Part shown: positions 10,021 through 24,927 of the stretch, piece after piece
How positions within the stretch are numbered: position 1 is the stretch's first letter
Layout of the letters: the number at the start of each line of letters is the position of its first letter
DNA from: Hyphomicrobium facile
GTDB taxonomy: Bacteria; Pseudomonadota; Alphaproteobacteria; Rhizobiales; Hyphomicrobiaceae
DNA length: 64,000 nt
Assembly (NCBI RefSeq): GCF_900116175.1
Contig: NZ_FPCH01000001.1
Location: 312,501-376,500, forward strand
Direction of reading: 5' to 3'
Position numbers and translations under genes: made by a program
The notes under the pieces: generated by a model
The model's database searches: none
The model's input: only the letters and a program-made list of their open reading frames with translations
What the model was told of the DNA's origin: nothing

Positions 10021-10653
10021 TCATTCGAAGCCAGTCAACTTCTGCATAGCTCTGCCGAGGATGCTGTTGAAGCGCATCGGCCCCTCGGAGGCGACCAAGC
10101 AGATGCAGTCCTCTCCGGCGCCAGCAACCGGAGCGTGCTCATCACCTTCATTCATATCGGCGACGTCGCCGACGCCGTATGAGCCGGTATTGTCAGTGAA
10201 GGATCCCCGCAAGACGAGGGTCATTTCCGAGCCAATGTGGCCGTGGTCAGGAAGTTTCAATCCCGGCGAAACCCTGATGAGGCGCAGGGACCCTTTAGCT
10301 CGTCCCGAAAGCGGAATCCGATGCTGCCAAACGCCAAAGCCAGCCCATTTCCATGGGATATCCTTGAGCCAAGGGCCGACATACTTTCTGAGAGCCGAGG
10401 GTACGTCGCCCTCGCCTGAAGCAAGCACTTTGGGTTCTTTCGAGTCTCGGAGTATGCCAATTCCCGTAGTGAGTGAGGCCGAAGGAACATCATCAAACAG
10501 CGATGCGCCTATGGTTTCCATGATCGCCAATTCGCGGCGGCAACGTTTGCAAAGCGAGATATGGCTCGCCATAACGGCGGCCAAAGCCTCCGGCATGCTT
10601 CCGGCGGAGCAGCTCACGAGGTTTTCAAGCGCCGGATGACGTTCGATGCTCAT
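10021..10653 (-). CDS. ChrR-like cupin anti-sigma factor
   Basis: A 210-residue protein of the ChrR family, partner of group ECF11 sigma factors. The N-terminal anti-sigma domain carries the zinc ligands His6, His31, Cys35 and Cys38 (HISLCKRC). The C-terminal half is a cupin (about residues 105-200) with LRLIRVSPGLKLPDHGHIGSE and EMTLVLRGSFTDNTG. In Rhodobacter, ChrR holds RpoE until singlet oxygen or organic peroxides trigger its release. The gene overlaps the sigma gene by 4 bases (ATGA), so the two are translated together. Singlet-oxygen sensing is inferred from the family. Confidence 0.88.
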   Translation of the reverse strand: MSIERHPALENLVSCSAGSMPEALAAVMASHISLCKRCRRELAIMETIGASLFDDVPSASLTTGIGILRDSKEPKVLASGEGDVPSALRKYVGPWLKDIPWKWAGFGVWQHRIPLSGRAKGSLRLIRVSPGLKLPDHGHIGSEMTLVLRGSFTDNTGSYGVGDVADMNEGDEHAPVAGAGEDCICLVASEGPMRFNSILGRAMQKLTGFE

Positions 10654-11192
10654 TCGTCTTGTGCCCCAACCGTCGCGCGAAGTTTTAAATATGCCAACCG
10701 AATACGCGATTTTACGGTGCCGACCGGCAAGCCCAGCCGCTCAGCGATTTCACGGTGGGACAGACCATCGATGAACGACAAGACGACAACTTGATACTGA
10801 TCGCGCGGCAAGGCATCCAGCGCGCGGTGCATGTTGAGCCGTCGCTCTTCATCCGAGACGACCTCATCCGGCTGTGCATCCATGCTCGCCTCCTGATCGT
10901 AACCATCGGGAAGCTCAACCCACATTTCCTCCTTACGCAGCCGATCGATCCTTAGATTGCGCGCGATCGTAAAAATCCACGTCGTGACACTTCCGCGTTC
11001 GCTGGAGTAGAGGTTCGCCTTGCGCCAGACCGCCAGAAGGGTTTCCTGCGCGAGTTCTTCCGCGGTGTTCGCGTCCGCGCCGTGCCGCATCATGAAGGAT
11101 TTGACGCGCGGCGCGTATTTCTGGAACAGCTGTTGAAATGCCAGCCGATCCTTCTGGTTTGCGATCTGCAGAAGGTTGTCCGAGTCAGACAT
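10650..11192 (-). CDS. rpoE: ECF sigma factor (RpoE/ECF11 type)
   Basis: A 180-residue ECF sigma factor. Region 2 (AFQQLFQKYAPRVKSFMMR, then AEELAQETLLAVWRKA and VTTWIFTIARNLRIDRLR) and region 4 (LPRDQYQVVVLSFIDGLSHR, then IAERLGLPVGTVKSRIRLA) are complete. It is paired with a ChrR-type anti-sigma factor directly downstream, the arrangement of the photo-oxidative stress regulator of Rhodobacter. The ATG at 11192 (MSDSDNLLQ) is chosen because it gives the family's usual N-terminus; the frame stays open to a GTG at 11264 and an ATG at 11237, and no start has a strong ribosome site. The gap 11265-11544 shows no gene. Confidence 0.88.
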   Translation of the reverse strand: MSDSDNLLQIANQKDRLAFQQLFQKYAPRVKSFMMRHGADANTAEELAQETLLAVWRKANLYSSERGSVTTWIFTIARNLRIDRLRKEEMWVELPDGYDQEASMDAQPDEVVSDEERRLNMHRALDALPRDQYQVVVLSFIDGLSHREIAERLGLPVGTVKSRIRLAYLKLRATVGAQDE

Positions 11193-11544
11193 GCTTGCCG
11201 ATCTTGGTTTTCGGTCACGGCCGAAAGGATATTCCATGCCCGGCTCGTTGACGATAGCGCTCACGATAGATAGCGGCCATTCCGATCCCGTCTATCTCAA
11301 TGTCGCTCTCGTCGTTGCGCTGATATCTTGCGGATCAATCGTTGGATCGTGGCGGCCATGCTTGAAGTGTATGGCGCGGGATCGCGAATCCCTTGGCCTC
11401 TACATCGCCCGCTCACTTTCCTACCAGGGCGTGGCGGTCGATATCTCGAGCACCCGCTCACACCGGCGCAGGTCCGCATCTACAATCAATACCACCGCCT
11501 ACCAGATTATCCACGGTGGGTGCGCGCAACAATCTCAAAAGCAG

Positions 11545-14910: not shown

Positions 14911-16917
14911 TTAAGTCGGCGATATTGGGCGCAAACCGTCCCCTGAAGCCAATATCCGTCGCGTTCTGCATAAACGATTAAGAAGCTCCTCGCGGCTATG
15001 TCCCTCCAACCAATCATCCTTGACAGTGGAGATAGTCTTTCGCGCGTCGTTGACCCGGCAAATGGCCGCTTGTGTATTTCGGGCAACCCGCCAAATTCTC
15101 GTCAAATCGCGCCCAAAAATACCCAGCGACAGATTCGGACCGATAGCCCTCAACTTCAACTCCACCTCTTCATCTTCCTTAAAGGGAATAACCAGAAACA
15201 CTGGGCAATAGAGGCTCTCTCGCACGATGCGCATCTCAGTGTTGCAGCAATCAAGTATCGTAGGTTTTAAGATCGCGGCCCTACCCCGATAATTCTCAAG
15301 TTCCCGTCCTCCTAGTCGGAGTTCAGCACCTGCATTTCTTGCCTCTTGAATGCGAGTCAAAGCCTCCGCGAGGTGACGTTTCGAGGGCAGAGAACCAACT
15401 TCCGTTTCGATGTCCAAAGGGTTGCCCACGGCAAGAGTGGCAACTTTTTCCCTTAGCCGCGCGATGAACCCCGTCCGAGCGCGCTCGGAAACAAACAGAA
15501 GGGTCTCGCTGAAGGAACGCGACCTAGCCCAGCTGCGTGGTCCCCGCACGAGGCTCTCCGCTGCAAGATCAAGATCGGCGTCTTCCAATACGATTACCGC
15601 CGATTTCGCGAGCCCGCCTCGGCCGGCCGTCAAAACATCTGGCCTCCGGAGCAAACCTTCCGCGACGTGCCCGCCAACGGACTTTAGAGCGGCATCAGGG
15701 ATACCGACTTCGTGCGCAAAACTGCAAAGGCGGTCGACGGCGCGCGATCGGGCGCCGGGCACGCAAATTATGACGGCATTGGCGAGAGCGAGGGCGGGCG
15801 CCGCAATTTCGCTTCCAGTGAGCAGTGGCGAATTCCAATGAGCGTTCGCAACCACGACACCGACAGGTTCTCGTTCGAGGTAGCCGAAGACGGTCTCTTC
15901 GAATCCATGACGCACCTGCTGCGGACGCGAAGCGAGTTCAGCAGCCCGTTCGAAGCTCGATATAACCTGGGGCATGTCAAAGCGCTCGATTTCGCCGACG
16001 GGACGACCTGTGTCCCGAGCCTGAAGTCGCGCGATCGACCGGATTTCACTACGAAGAAGCAGAGCCAATTTTTGCAGAGACTGCGATCGTCTTTCGCCAT
16101 TGGTCGTCCGCAGTGTCAAAAGTGCGCCGGACGCGTTTGAAATCACCGCGTCGCTGTTCAAGCGCTCCGATGCAGTCATTACTATCGGTGGCGAGGCGGC
16201 ATCGAATTCGACAAACTCCGTTTTCTCCACGAGAAGATTGACCAAATTGGAAACAATCGCCCGCGCTTTGGCTGCATCCGCCCTCCCGGTTGCGTGTGAT
16301 TGCAACCAAAGACCATCTATAGTTGCTGCAATCAGAGTCGCGCACACATCGACGCGCGCCGGAGCAACAAGGCTGCGCAGACCATGCCGCAAATTTGAGC
16401 GCATGCGTCGTTGGTAGATCGACTGAACACGTCGATAAGGCTCCGAATGCGCGATTTTGCCCCAAAATGCTAACCAAACAGCGCTTGTTCTCGGATCGAA
16501 CTGCTCGGCGTCAAGAGCTGCTTCGGGAACGGCAAGCACCCGTTGAAGAGGAGTACGCGCCTCTCGCATGCGAGCCGCGGTGGCAAACGAAAGACGGGCG
16601 GCCATGAATCGGAGAGTGGCCTCGAGCAAACCGTCCTTATCGCCAAAGTAGTGGGCAAAAAGGCTTTGTGAAACGCCAGCTTTGATCGCGATTTCACTTA
16701 GCGATGCGGACTTGAACCCCACCTTTGAAACCGTTTCGATCGTCGCCATAATCAAGTGCCGTCGGCGCTCCGCTTCAAAGCTCCGTAACTGCTCCAACCG
16801 GATATATTCGGATCGCCGTTCGCCCATATCCCCATTCATCAAAGAATTTAATTCCCCCGTAGGCAGTTCTTCGGGAATGCTTCCGCTTCTCGGCTGCCTC
16901 TCTCTCTCTCTAAGCAA
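14911..16917 (-). CDS. TetR (BetI-like) repressor fused to a degenerate aldehyde dehydrogenase
   Basis: One intact 668-codon frame. Residues about 45-225 form a TetR repressor closest to BetI, the choline-pathway repressor: HTH SASLSEIAIKAGVSQSLFAH, then YFGDKDGLLEATLRF and the BetI-like SAVWLAFWGKIAHSEP. Residues about 260-655 follow a BetB-type aldehyde dehydrogenase from end to end. Asn362 (HWNSPLL) of the oxyanion hole and the final GHSREELLNRL are kept. The catalytic Cys position falls on RSRSFSETLL (no Cys), the Glu-Leu-Gly-Gly base is replaced by RGGLAK, the coenzyme Lys is lost (ICVPGA), and about 30 residues with the FTGST-type nucleotide loop are deleted. It is therefore likely a ligand-binding, non-catalytic sensor domain. 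No bet genes are nearby. Confidence 0.8.
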   Translation of the reverse strand: MLRERERQPRSGSIPEELPTGELNSLMNGDMGERRSEYIRLEQLRSFEAERRRHLIMATIETVSKVGFKSASLSEIAIKAGVSQSLFAHYFGDKDGLLEATLRFMAARLSFATAARMREARTPLQRVLAVPEAALDAEQFDPRTSAVWLAFWGKIAHSEPYRRVQSIYQRRMRSNLRHGLRSLVAPARVDVCATLIAATIDGLWLQSHATGRADAAKARAIVSNLVNLLVEKTEFVEFDAASPPIVMTASERLNSDAVISNASGALLTLRTTNGERRSQSLQKLALLLRSEIRSIARLQARDTGRPVGEIERFDMPQVISSFERAAELASRPQQVRHGFEETVFGYLEREPVGVVVANAHWNSPLLTGSEIAAPALALANAVIICVPGARSRAVDRLCSFAHEVGIPDAALKSVGGHVAEGLLRRPDVLTAGRGGLAKSAVIVLEDADLDLAAESLVRGPRSWARSRSFSETLLFVSERARTGFIARLREKVATLAVGNPLDIETEVGSLPSKRHLAEALTRIQEARNAGAELRLGGRELENYRGRAAILKPTILDCCNTEMRIVRESLYCPVFLVIPFKEDEEVELKLRAIGPNLSLGIFGRDLTRIWRVARNTQAAICRVNDARKTISTVKDDWLEGHSREELLNRLCRTRRILASGDGLRPISPT

Positions 16918-17177
16918 TTCTGCAGCGCGGGCAGCGCCGTGAAGTCCGGCGACCCGAAAATCCTAAGACCAAAAGCCTAAGACCTTTGGCCTATCGATAC
17001 ATTGCAAACGCGTCCAGTTTCTGCGCAAATGCGTCATAGTGGCCGATCTGAAGGCAAAAACTTCGCGAACGAGTACGTTCATTTGCTGGTGAACACGCTG
17101 TGGGAGCCCAGGTCATACCGACGGCGGGCCTCAGCTTTGAGCTTTGTGGCGATGAGCCTCGGTACGGCCGCCTCACC

Positions 17178-17588
17178 ATGAATTGGTCAGGCCGGGCTCT
17201 GTTTTTCGCGCTTGCGCTCTTTCTCGATCAATCGCGACTTCGAGCCGAAGGTGTGACCATCGAAAGCGTCAACCCGTCGCAAAGCATCAAGGTGCAAGTC
17301 GACAAAGCAACCATCAGAGACGTGCTTCAGGCATTGCACGACAAATACAGTGTTGAAGTGGCAGCCAACGGCGACGTCGGATCGGATGATCTGATCTCGG
17401 TAACATTTCAGGGCAGTCTGCCGGAAATACTGGGGCGATTACTTCGTAATCAGAACTACATGATCGTCCGATCGAAAAAGAACGTCACGGGCGTGGAGAA
17501 GATTTTGATCGCCTTCTCTGACCCCTCAAAAGGCCAGAAGAGTGTGACGCCGCGGCGAACGCTGCCGGTGCCGCCGGAGATTCCCTGA
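17178..17588 (+). CDS. Secreted STN-domain-like protein
   Basis: A 136-residue protein. The ATG at 17178 is chosen because it gives a signal peptide (NWSGRALFFALALFLDQSRL, cleavage after RAEG). The mature part (VDKATIRDVLQALHDKYSVE, DDLISVTFQGSLPEILGRLL, NYMIV) has the beta-alpha-beta pattern of the secretin/TonB short N-terminal (STN) domain. STN domains normally sit at the front of secretins or FecA-like receptors; here it stands alone with a Pro-rich tail. It is divergent from the TetR-ALDH gene and convergent with the OmpA-family gene. The function is unknown. Confidence 0.65.
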   Translation: MNWSGRALFFALALFLDQSRLRAEGVTIESVNPSQSIKVQVDKATIRDVLQALHDKYSVEVAANGDVGSDDLISVTFQGSLPEILGRLLRNQNYMIVRSKKNVTGVEKILIAFSDPSKGQKSVTPRRTLPVPPEIP

Positions 17589-19224: not shown

Positions 19225-20007
19225 CTAATCGATGATATGGTAGCCGCCATCGATGTATAGCGTCTCGCCGGTAATCAGCTTAGCTCCATCCATGCCGAGA
19301 AACGCGACGGCGACCCCGACGTCATCGATCGAGACCAGACTACGGCTCGGCGCCTTCGATTGTGCTTTTTTTAGGAGCTTATCAAATTCGGTGATGCCAG
19401 AGGCGGCGCGAGTCTTCAGCGGACCGGGAGATATCGCGTGAACTCTTATGCCTTTTGGCCCGAGTTCGGCGGCCATGTAGCGTGTCGCGGATTCCAGAGC
19501 AGCCTTCACCGGTCCCATGATGTTGTAATGCTCGACCACCATTTGCGAGCCGTAGTAGGTCATCGTGAACAGGGCTCCGCCGGATTTCATCAAGGGTTCG
19601 GAGAGTTTCGCCATTCTGATGAATGACCAGCACGAGATTTCCATCGCTCGAAGAAACCCGTCTTTGGAACAATCGACAACGCGCCCCTGCAAGTCTTCCT
19701 TCGGCGCGAACGCGATCGAATGAACACAAAGATCAAGCCTGCCCCATTCCTTCTTTATTTTTTCGAATGCCTGCTCGAGCTGACCCTCCTGTTGAACGTC
19801 AAGCGGGATCAAGATAGGGGCGTCAATCTCCTTGGCGAGAGGCTCGACGTAGGGCTTGGCCCGGTCATTCAGATAGGTGATTGCAACATCGGCGCCGAAG
19901 GCCCGAAAAGCCTTGGCGCATCCCCAAGCAATCGACTGATCGTTCGCGATGCCGGTGACCAGCGCCTTTTTGCCCTTGAGCAGGTTGAGCGATGCAACGT
20001 CGATCAT
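19225..20007 (-). CDS. fabI: Enoyl-ACP reductase, FabI family
   Basis: A 260-residue short-chain dehydrogenase of the FabI type: nucleotide motif GIANDQSIAWGCAKAFR, catalytic Tyr-x6-Lys as YNIMGPVKAALES, and a C-terminal LITGETLYIDGGYHI. FabI reduces the last double bond in each round of fatty-acid elongation. It is the final gene of an operon with phosphotransacetylase and acetate kinase and overlaps the kinase by 4 bases. This suggests a specialised copy for low-oxygen acyl metabolism rather than the housekeeping enzyme (inference); I cannot see whether the genome has another fabI. Confidence 0.88.
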   Translation of the reverse strand: MIDVASLNLLKGKKALVTGIANDQSIAWGCAKAFRAFGADVAITYLNDRAKPYVEPLAKEIDAPILIPLDVQQEGQLEQAFEKIKKEWGRLDLCVHSIAFAPKEDLQGRVVDCSKDGFLRAMEISCWSFIRMAKLSEPLMKSGGALFTMTYYGSQMVVEHYNIMGPVKAALESATRYMAAELGPKGIRVHAISPGPLKTRAASGITEFDKLLKKAQSKAPSRSLVSIDDVGVAVAFLGMDGAKLITGETLYIDGGYHIID

Positions 20008-21218
20008 GCCCGCTTTTCCTCGAGCGACTCTGCGGTATGCGCTCGCAGCGTCCGGAGCGTATGTCGCGCGATCGTCAGTTCCTCATCGGTCGGCAGCACA
20101 TAGCAAGCGACGCGCGATCCCTGCCGGGAGATCCGAAGCTCGTTGTTCGTGTTGGCTTGTTCAGAGAGTTCGATGCCGAGCCACGACAGACGGTCCGCAA
20201 CGGACCGGCGAACCGCCGGCGCATTCTCGCCGATACCTGCAGTGAATACGAAGCCATCGATCCCACGCAGAGCGGCCGCGAGCATGCCGGTGAAGAGCGC
20301 GATACGATATGTGAAGTAATCGATCGCAAACTTGGCCTTCGGCTCGGTGCTCGCGAGCAATTCGCGGACGTCATTGCTCACCCCAGAGAGGCCTTTGAGG
20401 CCGCAATCGTGATAGAGGTAATGCTCGACTTCATTTGGACTCATCCCCTTTTCACGTAAGAGATAGAGCACGATGCCGGGGTCGAGCTGGCCTGGACGTG
20501 TCCCCATGGGTAAGCCGTCGAGCGCTGTGAAGCCCATACTGCTTTCGATGCTTTTTCCCGCCAGTAGCGCGCACATCGAAGCGCCGCTGCCGAGGTGAGC
20601 CACGACGACCCGGCCATCGGCAATTTCGGGCGCGACTTCGCGAAGTGATCTCGCGATGGACTCATACGACAGCCCATGAAAACCATATCGGCGGACGCCT
20701 TCGTCGTAGAGATTTTTCGGGATGGCGTAGCGGTCTGCCAGATCCGGGTGGCCTCGATGAAAGGAGGTATCGAAGCAGGCGACCTGCAAAAGGTGCGGCC
20801 GCCGTTCGAGCACGATCCTTATAGGTGCGAGGTTGTTCGATTGATGCAGCGGCGCAAGCGGAGCGAAACGTTCGAGGCGGTCGACCACCCATGGGCTGAC
20901 GACGGCCGGCTCGGTGAAGTCCGGGCCGCCATGTACGACCCTGTGACCGATCGCGACCGGCACTTCCCCGACATACTCGCGTAGGAACGCCACGAGTTCA
21001 TCGAGCGCGTCCGCCAAATCGCCGACCTCGCCGTCGCTCCATGACTTGTCGACCACAAGTTCGCCCTTGGCGTCTCTTGCCAAAAAGTGTGGTCTTGTCC
21101 CGATGCCCTCGATCTGCCCCTTGAGGCGTCGATTGAGCTCGTCACCACGTCCAACTTCGAACAGCTGGAACTTGATGCTTGAGCTGCCGGCGTTGACCAC
21201 CAAAATCGCTTCCGTCAT
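20004..21218 (-). CDS. ackA: Acetate kinase
   Basis: A 404-residue acetate/propionate kinase with full ASKHA-fold motifs: VVNAGSSSIKFQLFEVG at the N-terminus, HRVVHGG, FDTSFH, YGFHGLSYESIA, HLGSGAS, MGFTALDGLPMGTR and FTAGIGENAP. It converts acetyl phosphate and ADP to acetate and ATP. It overlaps fabI (4 bases) and lies 3 bases after the phosphotransacetylase gene, so the pair makes ATP from acetyl-CoA by substrate-level phosphorylation. With the oxygen-responsive box at the head of the operon, the likely role is energy saving when respiration is limited. Confidence 0.92.
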   Translation of the reverse strand: MTEAILVVNAGSSSIKFQLFEVGRGDELNRRLKGQIEGIGTRPHFLARDAKGELVVDKSWSDGEVGDLADALDELVAFLREYVGEVPVAIGHRVVHGGPDFTEPAVVSPWVVDRLERFAPLAPLHQSNNLAPIRIVLERRPHLLQVACFDTSFHRGHPDLADRYAIPKNLYDEGVRRYGFHGLSYESIARSLREVAPEIADGRVVVAHLGSGASMCALLAGKSIESSMGFTALDGLPMGTRPGQLDPGIVLYLLREKGMSPNEVEHYLYHDCGLKGLSGVSNDVRELLASTEPKAKFAIDYFTYRIALFTGMLAAALRGIDGFVFTAGIGENAPAVRRSVADRLSWLGIELSEQANTNNELRISRQGSRVACYVLPTDEELTIARHTLRTLRAHTAESLEEKRA

Positions 21219-21221
21219 CGC

Positions 21222-22181
21222 TCAAGCTCTGATTGCGGCATCTGCTCGTCGACTATGGCCGAGCAACATCGCCACGGCACAAGAAGCCAGACGCGTGCGA
21301 ATATTGTCCGCGCGTGAAGTCAGGATGATCGGCACTCTGGCACCCAGAACAATGCCAGCGGCATCCGCCTTCGAGATAAACGTAAGATTTTTCGCGAGCA
21401 TGTTGCCCGCTTCGAGATCGGGAACGACCAAAATTTGCGCTTGTCCCGCGACCGGCGATTTAATGCCTTTGATTTGAGCGGCCGCTGGGCTGATGGCATT
21501 ATCGAATGCGAGCGGCCCATCGACTTCGCCGCCGGTGATCTGTCCTCGATCCGCCATCTTGCAGAGCGCGGCCGCATCGATTGTGGAGGGAATGGCAGGC
21601 GATACCGTCTCGACAGCCGAGAGAATTGCGACTTTCGGTGTGCCGAGACCCAAGCTGACATAGAGATCGATCGCATTCTGCACGATGTCGCGCTTCGCCG
21701 AGAGGTCTGGTGCGATGTTCACGGCGGCATCGGTTATAAACAATGTACGCGGATGATCAGGAACGTCCATCACGAACACATGGCTGATGCGCCTGTTGGT
21801 CCTGAGCCCCGTCTCGCGCTTCGTCACGGCCCCCAATAGCTCGTCCGAGTGGAGGCTTCCCTTCATGAGCAACTCGGCCCTTCCGGAGCGAACAAGCTCG
21901 ACGGCCTTCTCGGCAGCCGCCTGACTGTGAGGCACATCGATCAACTCCAAGCCGCTGATATCGAGCCCAGCTGCTTTCGCGACGGCGGTAATGCGATCCT
22001 TGGGTCCGACGAGGATCGGCGTAATCAAGCCCGCTTGCATCGCCTCGAGCGCGCCACGGAGAGAAGTCTCATCGCACGGATGCGCCACCGCCGTCGAAAG
22101 AGCCGAGAGGCGCTGTGCAGCCGCGATCAGGCGCTCATATTTCTCGTGGCGGTGCAATTCTGAGACGGCTGCCTTCGCCAT
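21222..22181 (-). CDS. pta: Phosphate acetyl/butyryltransferase
   Basis: A 319-residue protein of the short phosphate acetyl/butyryl-transferase family (about 320 residues; lacks the DRTGG and N-terminal domains of long Pta). Motifs seen are ITPILVGPKDRI, LMKGSLHSDELLGAV, HVFVMDVPDHPRTLFITDAA, GPLAFDNAISPAAA and a C-terminal VGARVPIILTSRAD. It transfers the acyl group of acetyl-CoA (or another short acyl-CoA) to phosphate for the kinase encoded next. Preceded by the small operon protein, 21 bases away. Whether acetyl or butyryl is preferred cannot be read from sequence. Confidence 0.88.
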   Translation of the reverse strand: MAKAAVSELHRHEKYERLIAAAQRLSALSTAVAHPCDETSLRGALEAMQAGLITPILVGPKDRITAVAKAAGLDISGLELIDVPHSQAAAEKAVELVRSGRAELLMKGSLHSDELLGAVTKRETGLRTNRRISHVFVMDVPDHPRTLFITDAAVNIAPDLSAKRDIVQNAIDLYVSLGLGTPKVAILSAVETVSPAIPSTIDAAALCKMADRGQITGGEVDGPLAFDNAISPAAAQIKGIKSPVAGQAQILVVPDLEAGNMLAKNLTFISKADAAGIVLGARVPIILTSRADNIRTRLASCAVAMLLGHSRRADAAIRA

Positions 22182-22202
22182 AACCTTTCTCCTTCGAAAA
22201 GG

Positions 22203-22631
22203 TTACCACACGAGGGAGAGCGCCACCTCACCCGGCATTCCACCGGGAAAACTTACGATTTCAGCACGAAGCCTGTACCCAAGTGGCCGCAATTGCTCGT
22301 CGTAGAATTCGAACGCATCCTTGGCGAAGCCGGTTAGCGACGTCGGCCATTCGGGATCCGCTATGTTGATGCGTCGACCCCCGTCGCTACAGTAGTTCGA
22401 CGGGAAGGTAATGACCTGTAGGTGATGATGTCCGTTTTGAGCTGCGATGCGCACGGCATTGTTGATGCGCTCGACTGCCTCAGGCGCAACTTTACGCGAC
22501 ATGAAGGCTTCGCGCAGTTCGCGTTGTTGCTGTTTTTGGCTTTGACTGAGCTTTTGCTCGCGTTTCAGCTCTTCCATTTCCGCATCGGAGGCGATCATCT
22601 GCAGATCTTCGGGTCTCAACAGTCCAGGCAT
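22203..22631 (-). CDS. Conserved hypothetical protein of the DUF3141 operon
   Basis: A 142-residue soluble protein. The ATG at 22631 is chosen for its strong ribosome site (AGAAGGAGAAG, ending 6 bases upstream); the frame is open farther 5' into the DUF3141 gene. An N-terminal coiled-coil-like stretch rich in Gln, Lys and Glu (LKREQKLSQSQKQQQRELRE) is followed by a globular part (HHHLQVITFPSNYCSDGGRR). I do not recognise a named family. Its place between the PHA-synthase-like gene and the phosphotransacetylase suggests a helper of that pathway, perhaps granule or complex binding. Confidence 0.65.
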   Translation of the reverse strand: MPGLLRPEDLQMIASDAEMEELKREQKLSQSQKQQQRELREAFMSRKVAPEAVERINNAVRIAAQNGHHHLQVITFPSNYCSDGGRRINIADPEWPTSLTGFAKDAFEFYDEQLRPLGYRLRAEIVSFPGGMPGEVALSLVW

Positions 22632-22674
22632 GCTTTCTTCTCCTTCTGTCTTCGGCCAGCGGAAAGCTGCTTTC

Positions 22675-24927
22675 TCAGTGATGCTTCGAACTTCTGACAG
22701 TCTGCACCGTTGGAGCAGCGGCCGCATGTTGCCGGGTCAAATTCTGCAACTCATCGGATTCGAAAATAGCCTCGATCTCCGCCAGTCGCTCCCGCGCTGG
22801 TTTGCTTCGGACACCGACGAGTTCAATGATCCGGTCGAGCTTTCCCTTCATTCTGAAGGCTAGATCCGGATTGCGTGCGAGCATTGACGGAATGGCATTG
22901 ATAGCTCCGCGCTCGTCCAGCAACAGCATCAGGAACTGCTGGCGCACGATTTGCTTGAATGTCGTGAGAGTGACGCCTTTGCCGGTATCTTCTCGCATGC
23001 GCCGCAGAAGATTGAATCCGCGCTCGTCAATGACGCCATCGGGCATTCGGATATAGAGAAGCGCGCGGATAATGGCCTCCCGCGGACCGCCGTCCGATAT
23101 CCGGCTTTTGAGCTCGTCAATTTTTTGCGCGATCAGCGTACGATAGGCGACGCCGTCATCCAGTCTTCGCCGGGGTTTGTCGTCGCTTGCTTTGAGTCCC
23201 ACGAGTGCTTGCAAAAGCGGCGAACCGTAAAACGCATGAAACCACGCTTCGATCGTATTGTCGCGTAGATCGCGATAGGCATCGAGCCTATCAATGAACC
23301 ACTCGCTGAAGCTTTCCTGCGCCTGCCATAAGACGTTGTCTTTCGAGACAGGCTGGCGGTTTTCCCGGATCCACTCAACATTCGACAGCAGGGGCTGCAG
23401 CAGAGGATTAGAGTCGGAGAAAAATTCATATTGCATGCGAAGAGGATGTAATCGGCGCATCCATTCTGCGGTGGTCTCGTTGGCCCAGGCTCTCATCCAT
23501 GGCTGCATAAACGTCCGATAGAGCCCGAGATTGATTTCGGAGAGGCGCGCGACGGCCGCAAACTCGCGATCGTCCTCCTCGCTGTTGCTGCCGAGTGCGC
23601 GGATGTCATCTAAAGTGCGGGCTTCGAAGCGGACTAGATAGTCACCCCCTATGAATTCGGCCCCGGCTTCGTCACCGTTCTTGGGCGTCATCACGGCTTC
23701 GTAGAGACCGGGCGGTAGCGTATCGATCAGATCGATATTGCTCGCGAATTGATCGTGCTCCTTCTTGGCAACGGAGCCCGAAACAAAGATGCCGAGATGT
23801 CCCACGGACTCGTGCACCGCATAAACGATCGTTTGGCCGTGAGTCCGAATGTCGTCAACGCTGTCGTAGAGATCGAGAATCCAATCCAAGGCCTGCGGCG
23901 GGGGCGTGATGTTGTCTGCCTTCGAGCAGAAGACGACAATCGGCGAGCGAATGTTACGAAGATCGATGCGAGCGCCGTTGGACGATGCGATCTCACCCGT
24001 CGTGAGTTTATTTGCGACGAACAATTCATCGGCAATGAATTGCATCTCACCGGCGTTCAGCAACACATGTCCGCCCCACCACTGTTCGAAATCCAGATAC
24101 CGCGGCGTTTCGGTGTCGACCTTGGAGTAGAGATTGTAGTGCTTGGCCCAAAGAGTATTTGCGGGGTTGAGGTTCTCGAAATTGAAAACGAGCCACGCAC
24201 CATCGAACTTGCCGTTACCGGTATCTCCGAGCAGAGCGGTGAGCCAAGTGCCGCCAAGTAAACCGGCGGTGTAACGCATGGGATTCTGTCTCGGCTCTCC
24301 GGCCCAATACGAGAGGGGAGCCCCCGCGATGATGATTGGGCCGAACAGCTCAGGCCGCTCGGCCGCCACCATCATGACAGCCCAACCCGCTTGGCAATTG
24401 CCGATAACGGCTGGCTTGCCGTCCGCCTCCGGATGCAGGTTAATGACATGCTGAATGAAGACGGCTTCCGCCTGTGCGATGTCTTCAATTGTCTGATCCG
24501 GAACCGGCTCCGGAAGAAAGCCGATGAAATAGCACGGGTGACCGGCCTTCATCGCCACGCCGATCTCACTCTGCGGCTTGAACCCGCCGATGCCGGGTCC
24601 ATGCCCGGCTCGTGGGTCGACGACCACAAATGGCCGCTTACGTTTGTCGGGCTTGTCTTCTTCGGAGGGGACTATGCGTACGAGTGCGTAGTTCACAGGC
24701 TTTGATAATGTGCGGCCATCAATGACAAGCTCGCAGGCGAATTTCAAAACATGCGGCGCGCGCTTGGCTGCGTGCTCATGATACCGCGAGCTTCTTTGCT
24801 CGAGTGCGTCGAGAAAGAGAATGCTGCGTTGCCAAGCATCGATCGAATACGCCCACGCGTCCAAGGCTACGTTGAATGGTTGTGGGTTGCTCGGTTTTTG
24901 GACGGCTGAAATCGTTGGGTCGGGCAT
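22675..24927 (-). CDS. DUF3141 protein, PHA-synthase-like alpha/beta hydrolase
   Basis: A 750-residue protein. The N-terminal half carries an alpha/beta-hydrolase fold with a PhaC-like nucleophile elbow, VIGNCQAGWAV, where Cys rather than Ser is the presumed nucleophile, preceded by PFVVVDPRAGHGPGIGGFKP and followed by IVVFCSKADNITPPPQALDW and HESVGHLGIFVSG (candidate Asp and His). The C-terminal 300 residues are helical and specific to DUF3141. Real PHA synthases have GxCxGG; here it is GNCQAG, so polymerase activity is unproven. It heads the operon with pta, ackA and fabI, 60 bases after a perfect FixK/FNR box. Confidence 0.85.
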   Translation of the reverse strand: MPDPTISAVQKPSNPQPFNVALDAWAYSIDAWQRSILFLDALEQRSSRYHEHAAKRAPHVLKFACELVIDGRTLSKPVNYALVRIVPSEEDKPDKRKRPFVVVDPRAGHGPGIGGFKPQSEIGVAMKAGHPCYFIGFLPEPVPDQTIEDIAQAEAVFIQHVINLHPEADGKPAVIGNCQAGWAVMMVAAERPELFGPIIIAGAPLSYWAGEPRQNPMRYTAGLLGGTWLTALLGDTGNGKFDGAWLVFNFENLNPANTLWAKHYNLYSKVDTETPRYLDFEQWWGGHVLLNAGEMQFIADELFVANKLTTGEIASSNGARIDLRNIRSPIVVFCSKADNITPPPQALDWILDLYDSVDDIRTHGQTIVYAVHESVGHLGIFVSGSVAKKEHDQFASNIDLIDTLPPGLYEAVMTPKNGDEAGAEFIGGDYLVRFEARTLDDIRALGSNSEEDDREFAAVARLSEINLGLYRTFMQPWMRAWANETTAEWMRRLHPLRMQYEFFSDSNPLLQPLLSNVEWIRENRQPVSKDNVLWQAQESFSEWFIDRLDAYRDLRDNTIEAWFHAFYGSPLLQALVGLKASDDKPRRRLDDGVAYRTLIAQKIDELKSRISDGGPREAIIRALLYIRMPDGVIDERGFNLLRRMREDTGKGVTLTTFKQIVRQQFLMLLLDERGAINAIPSMLARNPDLAFRMKGKLDRIIELVGVRSKPARERLAEIEAIFESDELQNLTRQHAAAAPTVQTVRSSKHH

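Follow-up and report, generated by a model that had tools for sequence, protein, structure and literature searches.

The window (the whole stretch of 64,000 nucleotides analysed here, from Hyphomicrobium facile) carries on its minus strand an unbroken frame of 668 codons that opens with TTG. Close relatives of the encoded protein align only from residue 24-42 of this frame, which makes an internal ATG at 16839, giving a protein of 642 residues, the likely true start rather than the TTG. The features of the locus are as follows.

14911..16917, minus strand: whole open frame, TTG start, 668 codons (ORF reading)
14911..16839, minus strand: likeliest gene, 642 amino acids, with the in-frame ATG directly before the conserved part (alignment of relatives)
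16618..16752, minus strand: TetR_N DNA-binding domain, residues 56-100 of 668 (Pfam, 1.4e-9)
16234..16551, minus strand: TetR_C_6, the BetI-type sensor/dimer domain, residues 123-228, VWLAFW motif intact (Pfam, 3.3e-23)
15040..16152, minus strand: aldehyde dehydrogenase (ALDH) domain of BetB type, residues ~256-626 of 668, catalytic residues gone (Pfam, NCBIfam and predicted fold)
15763..15765, minus strand: position of the coenzyme Lys, now Cys (motif comparison)
15607..15624, minus strand: deletion junction, ~25 residues gone, comprising the nucleotide loop and ELGG with the general-base Glu (alignment)
15502..15528, minus strand: loop that formerly held the catalytic Cys, now A-R-S-R-S-F-S-E-T (motif comparison)
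16840..17099, no strand: upstream region in which no BetI-type operator was found (matrix scan)

The original prediction described a BetI-like TetR repressor and a BetB-like ALDH in one 668-codon frame, and Pfam and NCBIfam bear this out. BetI and betaine-aldehyde dehydrogenase (BADH) are the top NCBIfam families for the protein, the Pfam Aldedh match (1.3e-60) is split in two stretches, and the best PDB sequence matches of the ALDH part are BetB; together these matches rule out chance homology of that part. The protein scores above the cut-off of the BetI model PRK00767 (157.9 vs 118), below that of the BetI model TIGR03384 (174.5 vs 201.3) and far below both BADH equivalog cut-offs (173.6 vs 593 and 163.6 vs 668.6). 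Pfam found no proline dehydrogenase domain in it.

A first structure prediction was poor (pLDDT 43.6). The second, made with 16 ALDH rows and no TetR rows in the alignment, was good only for the ALDH part, moderate for the helix-turn-helix and, for want of TetR rows, poor for the rest of the TetR half. Between residues 231 and 600 of the 642-residue protein, 31 of 37 ten-residue blocks had pLDDT >70; the former active-site loop (431-450) is among the weak ones. Foldseek matched the predicted ALDH part best to ALDH9 and BetB structures (6qak_A, E 3.5e-31, target TM 0.75; Pseudomonas aeruginosa BetB 6bjp_D, target TM 0.76). The ALDH half is thus predicted to keep the ALDH fold, in agreement with what had been claimed for it.

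Within this fold the catalytic Cys, the general-base Glu, the coenzyme Lys and the nucleotide loop are all missing, as had been noticed from the sequence alone, with a deletion somewhat shorter than the 30 or so residues first given. Two motifs had been thought to survive. The oxyanion Asn does so in the window protein (HWNSPLL), but its six nearest dead relatives read HWSAPLL, HWSAALL or RRTAPLL at this site; the C-terminal ALDH motif LPFGG..SG is absent. The WNYP...CWK of BADHs reads WNSP...SEI in the window, so that its Tyr and Trp, which we take to be the choline-cage residues of BADHs, are replaced. Judged by these residues, the ALDH half of the window protein is dead as an enzyme. Its fold and a conserved Cys at the old coenzyme-Lys site might be taken to hint at some other chemistry, but with the loop, Lys, Glu and Cys all absent from the window protein we consider retained enzyme activity very improbable.

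To place this protein we searched 397 genomes of the same order and read all 30 of the loci fetched from this first sample. (Below, f10, f15, f28, f30, f34, f35, f45 and f50 are family codes, and G and L numbers denote genomes and loci.) These loci held 23 fusions including the window's: seven dead ones in the window/f34 group, three dead ones in f15, and 13 intact ones in f10, f15, f28, f30, f35 and f45. The remaining seven loci comprised two with a TetR-only gene and five with a separate betI-like gene. Wider searches, from which 20 loci were picked for reading, and plasmid records added nine further fusions, which belong to Methylobacterium nodulans, M. aquaticum, Komagataeibacter saccharivorans and six other genomes. 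The M. nodulans fusion on pMNOD01 (WP_015934072.1, L198:8992-11025) is annotated as BetI, the M. aquaticum fusion sits on plasmid pMaq22A_1p, and the K. saccharivorans fusion (WP_254058047.1, L201:8031-10061) is annotated as BetB. In these two annotated records each public name hides the other half of the protein, a warning for annotators. Since the two or three best candidates per genome were scored and part of the fetched loci read, fusion frequencies given here are lower bounds.

Across the 32 BetI-BetB fusions compared, all from Alphaproteobacteria, the catalytic Cys is kept in 20 and lost in 12 (motif table); it had been asked whether proteins with these two domains always lack it, and they do not. 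In the 20 intact fusions the motif set is complete (oxyanion Asn, coenzyme Lys, nucleotide loop, general-base Glu, catalytic Cys, E-x-F-G-P), and the ALDH half of the one tested, L065, scores above the two BADH equivalog cut-offs (818.5 vs 593 and 699.3 vs 668.6). The 12 dead fusions have lost most other catalytic motifs along with the Cys; in one of them, L063 of f15, Lys and Glu persist. With a BetI-type TetR followed by a BetB-type ALDH in one frame, and both halves grouping with those of other fusions, the window protein belongs to this family. The idea of an assembly artefact or a chance join of two genes is refuted by the same fusion in 31 further proteins from other assemblies, the two annotated records among them, and we give it practically no weight.

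Some searches around this census returned nothing. No dead fusion was matched in 20 f10 genomes at E 1e-85, a search that also missed the known intact fusions of f10; none of the long frames in six additional rows of the order sample was a BetI-BetB fusion; and the viral contigs searched held no BetI-like relative. Locus L264 (G105:C9:51000-56000) has a 674-residue frame with a C-terminal TetR match and no ALDH match, which is different from the BetI-BetB fusion.

As far as these sequences tell, the fusion is not in itself the invention of a dead enzyme; it is a repressor joined to an enzyme, with the enzyme dying in some lineages. That 20 of 32 fusions carry the full catalytic set suggests that the starting state was probably an active enzyme joined to a repressor, with catalysis lost later. 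The ancestral form was likely intact in both halves, a repressor that would also have been an enzyme of the pathway it controls.

The genes around the fusions fit this order of events. We located TetR, ALDH, betA, choX, choW and choV by tblastn in the stretches around 14 of the 20 intact and all 12 dead fusions. At all 14 intact loci betA lies downstream and the stretch has no second ALDH; 13 of them have a divergent choXWV, Komagataeibacter being the one without. Two intact-fusion genomes searched for another BetB had ALDHs of 41-43%. At one intact locus (L070:10144-11768, G358) the betA behind the fusion is in two abutting pieces (10671/10674), perhaps through a frameshift or a sequencing error. 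Dead f34 fusions at cho loci all face choXWV-betB-betA (5/5), and the same gene set accompanies the dead fusions on both Methylobacterium plasmids; all seven of these separate BetBs have WNYP, FKPSE, ELGGK, the Cys motif and (D/E)EIFGP. The dead f15 fusions have choXWV in three of three stretches and betA in none. Genome-wide, BetA was not found at E 1e-120 in two of the three f15 dead-fusion genomes, the other having only 46-47% matches; at E 1e-110 a second BetB-like ALDH was absent from two of the three and present in one, at 41%. Two dead fusions, that of G235 (f34) and that of the window, are orphans with no choline genes nearby; G235 has two other ALDHs (38-39%) near its fusion, and its genome yielded no BetA at E 1e-120 and no BetB at E 1e-110. 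The pattern that fits the 26 loci is, it seems, loss of catalysis from the fused ALDH wherever another BetB took over or the pathway is gone.

The published BetI box is ATTGACG*CGTCAAT, with choline as effector (PMC12442346). We built a palindrome matrix from 12 sites, taken from nine fusion loci (seven intact ones and two dead ones of f15), two separate-gene loci and Komagataeibacter, and the resulting palindrome is close to that box. Predicted sites lie between the fusion and choX at all dead cho-linked loci (f34 5/5, Methylobacterium 2/2 and f15 3/3, where two of the three f15 sites are themselves training sites of the matrix), with 0-9 of 1000 composition shuffles scoring as well. The TetR-only loci also have a predicted site (5 and 17 of 1000 shuffles as good). 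Intact loci do not all score well: the best site of L065 reaches 4.6, short of the 5.9 that marks the 95% level for random stretches of 400 bases.

The window copy differs. The original prediction had proposed testing DNA binding at its own promoter. Control of that promoter is unsupported for this copy: no BetI-type operator was found at 16785-17200, and for the upstream region 745 of 1000 shuffles scored as well as the best site. The orphan fusion of G235 likewise has no operator upstream (394 of 1000 shuffles as good), none of BetI type was found at the window genome's own bet/cho locus, and over the whole window genome a related pattern matched 11 times, as did its reversed control (11). 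With no operator near the gene and no genome-wide excess, the window copy has probably lost or changed its DNA target, so far as such scans can tell. On the plus strand a 162-residue frame without a Pfam match (17100-17588) starts near the fusion's upstream region.

How did the window genome come by this gene? First, in the window's own family a match covering both halves was found in one of 103 genomes, the window's own, at E 1e-40, the other listed matches covering the ALDH part only; the full-length close relatives in the order sample are all f34. Second, the search of the window genome gave no second BetI-like protein, the next TetR match after the fusion being 33% over 51 residues, and its betA, betB and choXWV are on another contig (C4, L079) beside a different regulator gene, presumably GlxA-like. 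Third, GC3 of the fusion gene is 0.57 against 0.63-0.77 for the 19 other window genes measured; three f34 fusions have 0.81-0.90. Probably, then, the window copy was gained by horizontal transfer, with loss in all other genomes of the family as a possibility on the same sequence evidence. Its orphan position, absent operator and odd GC3 would also fit slow decay of this copy. Empty-site synteny in three genus members found no conserved neighbours except an OmpA-like gene, which leaves the transfer undated. Elsewhere in the window (10021-11264) an ECF sigma factor lies next to a ChrR-cupin-like protein on one strand (Pfam), which resembles a sigma/anti-sigma pair. A same-strand gene run at 19225-24927 includes a DUF3141 protein and, we presume, an enoyl-ACP reductase, an acetate kinase and a phosphate acetyltransferase.

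The TetR tree places the separate BetIs on one side (97/91) and fits a single origin of the fusion. In it the dead f34 and Methylobacterium proteins, the window protein and the two TetR-only proteins form one clade (11 rows, 100/100), within which the window groups with six f34 fusions (98/97). The ALDH tree is less simple. The separate BetBs of f50 adjoin a fused one there (99/95), and a later split of the fusion, or several fusion events, is therefore possible from the sequences. All dead ALDHs nest in this tree as one group among fused BetBs, where long branches meet, and the separate BetBs included from f34 and M. nodulans make up a clade of their own (5 rows, 100/100). Capture of the dead ALDH from a separate BetB or some other ALDH is unsupported by this nesting, subject to the same long-branch caveat.

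Whether catalysis was lost once or several times depends on f15. In the TetR tree its three dead proteins group with the intact f15 fusions, so catalysis was probably lost more than once. The tree speaks for independent loss in f15 and in the clade of f34, Methylobacterium and the window; parsimony counts 4 changes. Repeated loss is thus the probable course on these trees, with the AU test not rejecting a single clade of all dead fusions (p 0.081); for the three dead f15 rows as one clade it gave p 0.227. In two of 18 f34 genomes (G269 and G111) a BetI of the dead-fusion clade stands without any ALDH (L058 7866-8606 and L059 7890-8603). No ALDH remnant was found behind these two genes, and their operon retains a separate betB; by their tree position, a renewed loss of the ALDH tail seems to have occurred inside the dead-fusion clade, and the domain is dispensable there.

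If the domain can be dropped, it might be a functionless tail decaying behind a working repressor. That catalysis was probably lost repeatedly, that the tail vanished entirely in two genomes, and that the window copy is orphaned with no operator would all suit such a relic, as would the faster evolution of the ALDH part. NG86 dN/dS for the dead ALDH in seven pairs was 0.32, 0.21, 0.25, 0.22, 0.48, 0.39 and 0.55 (about 0.20-0.55), against 0.11, 0.02, 0.06, 0.05, 0.19, 0.14 and 0.16 for the TetR part of the same pairs, which exclude the window. For the window the synonymous distance is saturated. Among intact fusions (four pairs) the ALDH values were 0.04, 0.22, 0.23 and 0.16 vs 0.06, 0.27, 0.23 and 0.22 for TetR. 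The ratio of the dead ALDH thus exceeds the TetR value by a factor of 2.6-8.5 but stays <1 in seven of seven pairs, and YN00 gave 0.09-0.23 for the ALDH part of five dead pairs. Neutral simulations of six pairs, matched to fourfold-site divergence, argue against the relic too: the ALDH amino-acid identities seen were 89, 86, 78, 55, 58 and 42%, where neutral drift gave 58, 38, 26, 20, 20 and 10%, a 1.5-4.2-fold excess. The open frame as such was rejected as proof of function for the relatives, since drift would leave few stops anyway (a mean of 0.6-1.8 in five pairs), stops being rare in GC-rich genomes; for the pair of the window and L052, by contrast, none of 200 neutral runs was stop-free.

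The pattern of conserved residues points the same way. In the ALDH part 91 of 418 window residues are invariant across the seven f34/window proteins (about four lineages), and 42 of these are derived, differing from the commonest residue in the 20 intact fusions. The derived invariants include R-x-R-x-x-S-E in the old Cys loop, where the window protein and all six of its nearest relatives read A-R-x-R-x-x-S-E-T; the Cys for the coenzyme Lys, present in 7/7 f34 and window proteins and in one of the two Methylobacterium proteins; and a D-W near the C terminus. Of the columns invariant in intact fusions the window keeps 72/190. Derived residues held invariant across deep divergence are not what a relic should display. 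By these sequence measures, constraint on the dead ALDH is relaxed yet present, and some of it in the distant pairs may be older than the loss of catalysis. We regard the relic as rather unlikely. Purifying selection together with the derived invariant residues speaks for a remodelled pocket and a role other than catalysis, and a role of this kind (oligomer support, allostery or ligand sensing) is likely on that evidence.

Which role this would be is where the original prediction went furthest, proposing that the enzyme had been captured as a new metabolite-sensing domain, with an aldehyde or betaine-like ligand controlling DNA binding. The predicted fold and the constraint on the domain in relatives agree with this, and the new loop and the Cys at the coenzyme-Lys site look as if the pocket had been rebuilt. 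The usual ALDH ligands are unlikely to fit a domain that has lost the Lys, the nucleotide loop, the catalytic residues and the WNYP...CWK aromatics; the window protein still has BetI's own choline-sensing domain, with VWLAFW intact; and two close relatives manage without the ALDH part. Non-catalytic capture thus accords with the purifying selection seen in relatives, while sensing of such a ligand by the ALDH pocket is unsupported and has become less likely. We hold such a sensor to be possible but unlikely. The loop and the Lys-to-Cys change would suggest an anionic or thiol-reactive ligand instead of betaine aldehyde. A bolder version, is a shade more doubtful still: an enzyme would have been swallowed by the repressor of its operon, at first giving a bifunctional protein, and once it had been replaced its dead pocket would have been remade into a further allosteric input for such a ligand, a switch from enzyme to regulator domain that would have taken place more than once in Alphaproteobacteria.

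The reading we prefer, with a probability of about two in three, is that the window gene belongs to a BetI-BetB fusion family in whose window clade the ALDH lost catalysis after BetB replacement and was retained as a folded, non-catalytic module. It starts from what the sequences give: the fusion, the loss of the active site, the relatives and their loci, the operator-like sites of relatives and the purifying selection in them. From these we infer an order of events and, with it, the transfer, repressor activity, choline sensing and a role for the dead domain. In the ancestor BetI would have been fused to BetB, the repressor doubling as pathway enzyme. In the window clade another BetB would have taken over the reaction, the fused ALDH would have lost catalysis, and the repressor would have retained the dead domain as a folded module. 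The TetR-type dimer would bind the BetI-like palindrome and sense choline through the TetR_C_6 domain of the fusion itself; the ALDH, non-catalytic, would most likely stabilise the oligomer or a conformational switch, possibly with a new ligand. The window copy, probably gained horizontally, would have lost its link to the bet/cho locus. Taken together, these comparisons indicate that the fusion is real, wider than first thought and not always dead, with sensing possible and the ligand class first proposed unlikely.

Enzymes turned regulators are usually known only as end points. The choline locus displays each step in living species, with betI and betB apart, fused and intact, fused and dead, and BetI alone once the tail had apparently gone, and so offers a natural series for testing if a transcription factor gains from a dead enzyme domain, and in what way.

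Set beside BetI, the window protein has TetR_N and TetR_C_6 and passes PRK00767, and its relatives have BetI-like palindromes beside choX; described BetIs, by contrast, are ~200 residues long with no enzyme domain (model lengths 189 and 197), and the window gene has no operator found, is not beside bet/cho genes and falls below the TIGR03384 cut-off. The ALDH half matches BetB best among both NCBIfam families and PDB sequences, and the dead ALDHs nest among fused BetBs, but the window ALDH is without catalytic residues and far below the BADH cut-offs. The original prediction knew of no such fusion; the open-licence full-text literature searched, including PMC12442346, PMC4744692, PMC9132996 and PMC12398946, showed no BetI-BetB or TetR-ALDH fusion, but the window protein is not unique, with 31 further fusion proteins now found. 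PutA joins a DNA-binding repressor domain, proline dehydrogenase and ALDH in one chain, so that a repressor is likewise attached to an ALDH of its own pathway (PMC9132996); the intact BetI-BetB fusions are the nearest analogue of this design. The ALDH of PutA is active, and the window protein has no proline dehydrogenase. The DNA-binding fold of PutA is ribbon-helix-helix, unlike the TetR half here. PutA also has an ALDH-superfamily domain of unknown function, named in a title that PMC12398946 cites. It may be a non-catalytic ALDH-fold domain kept in the protein, and it is not known to be attached to a TetR repressor. Of the printed designs we found, PutA comes nearest to the fusion described here (PMC9132996).
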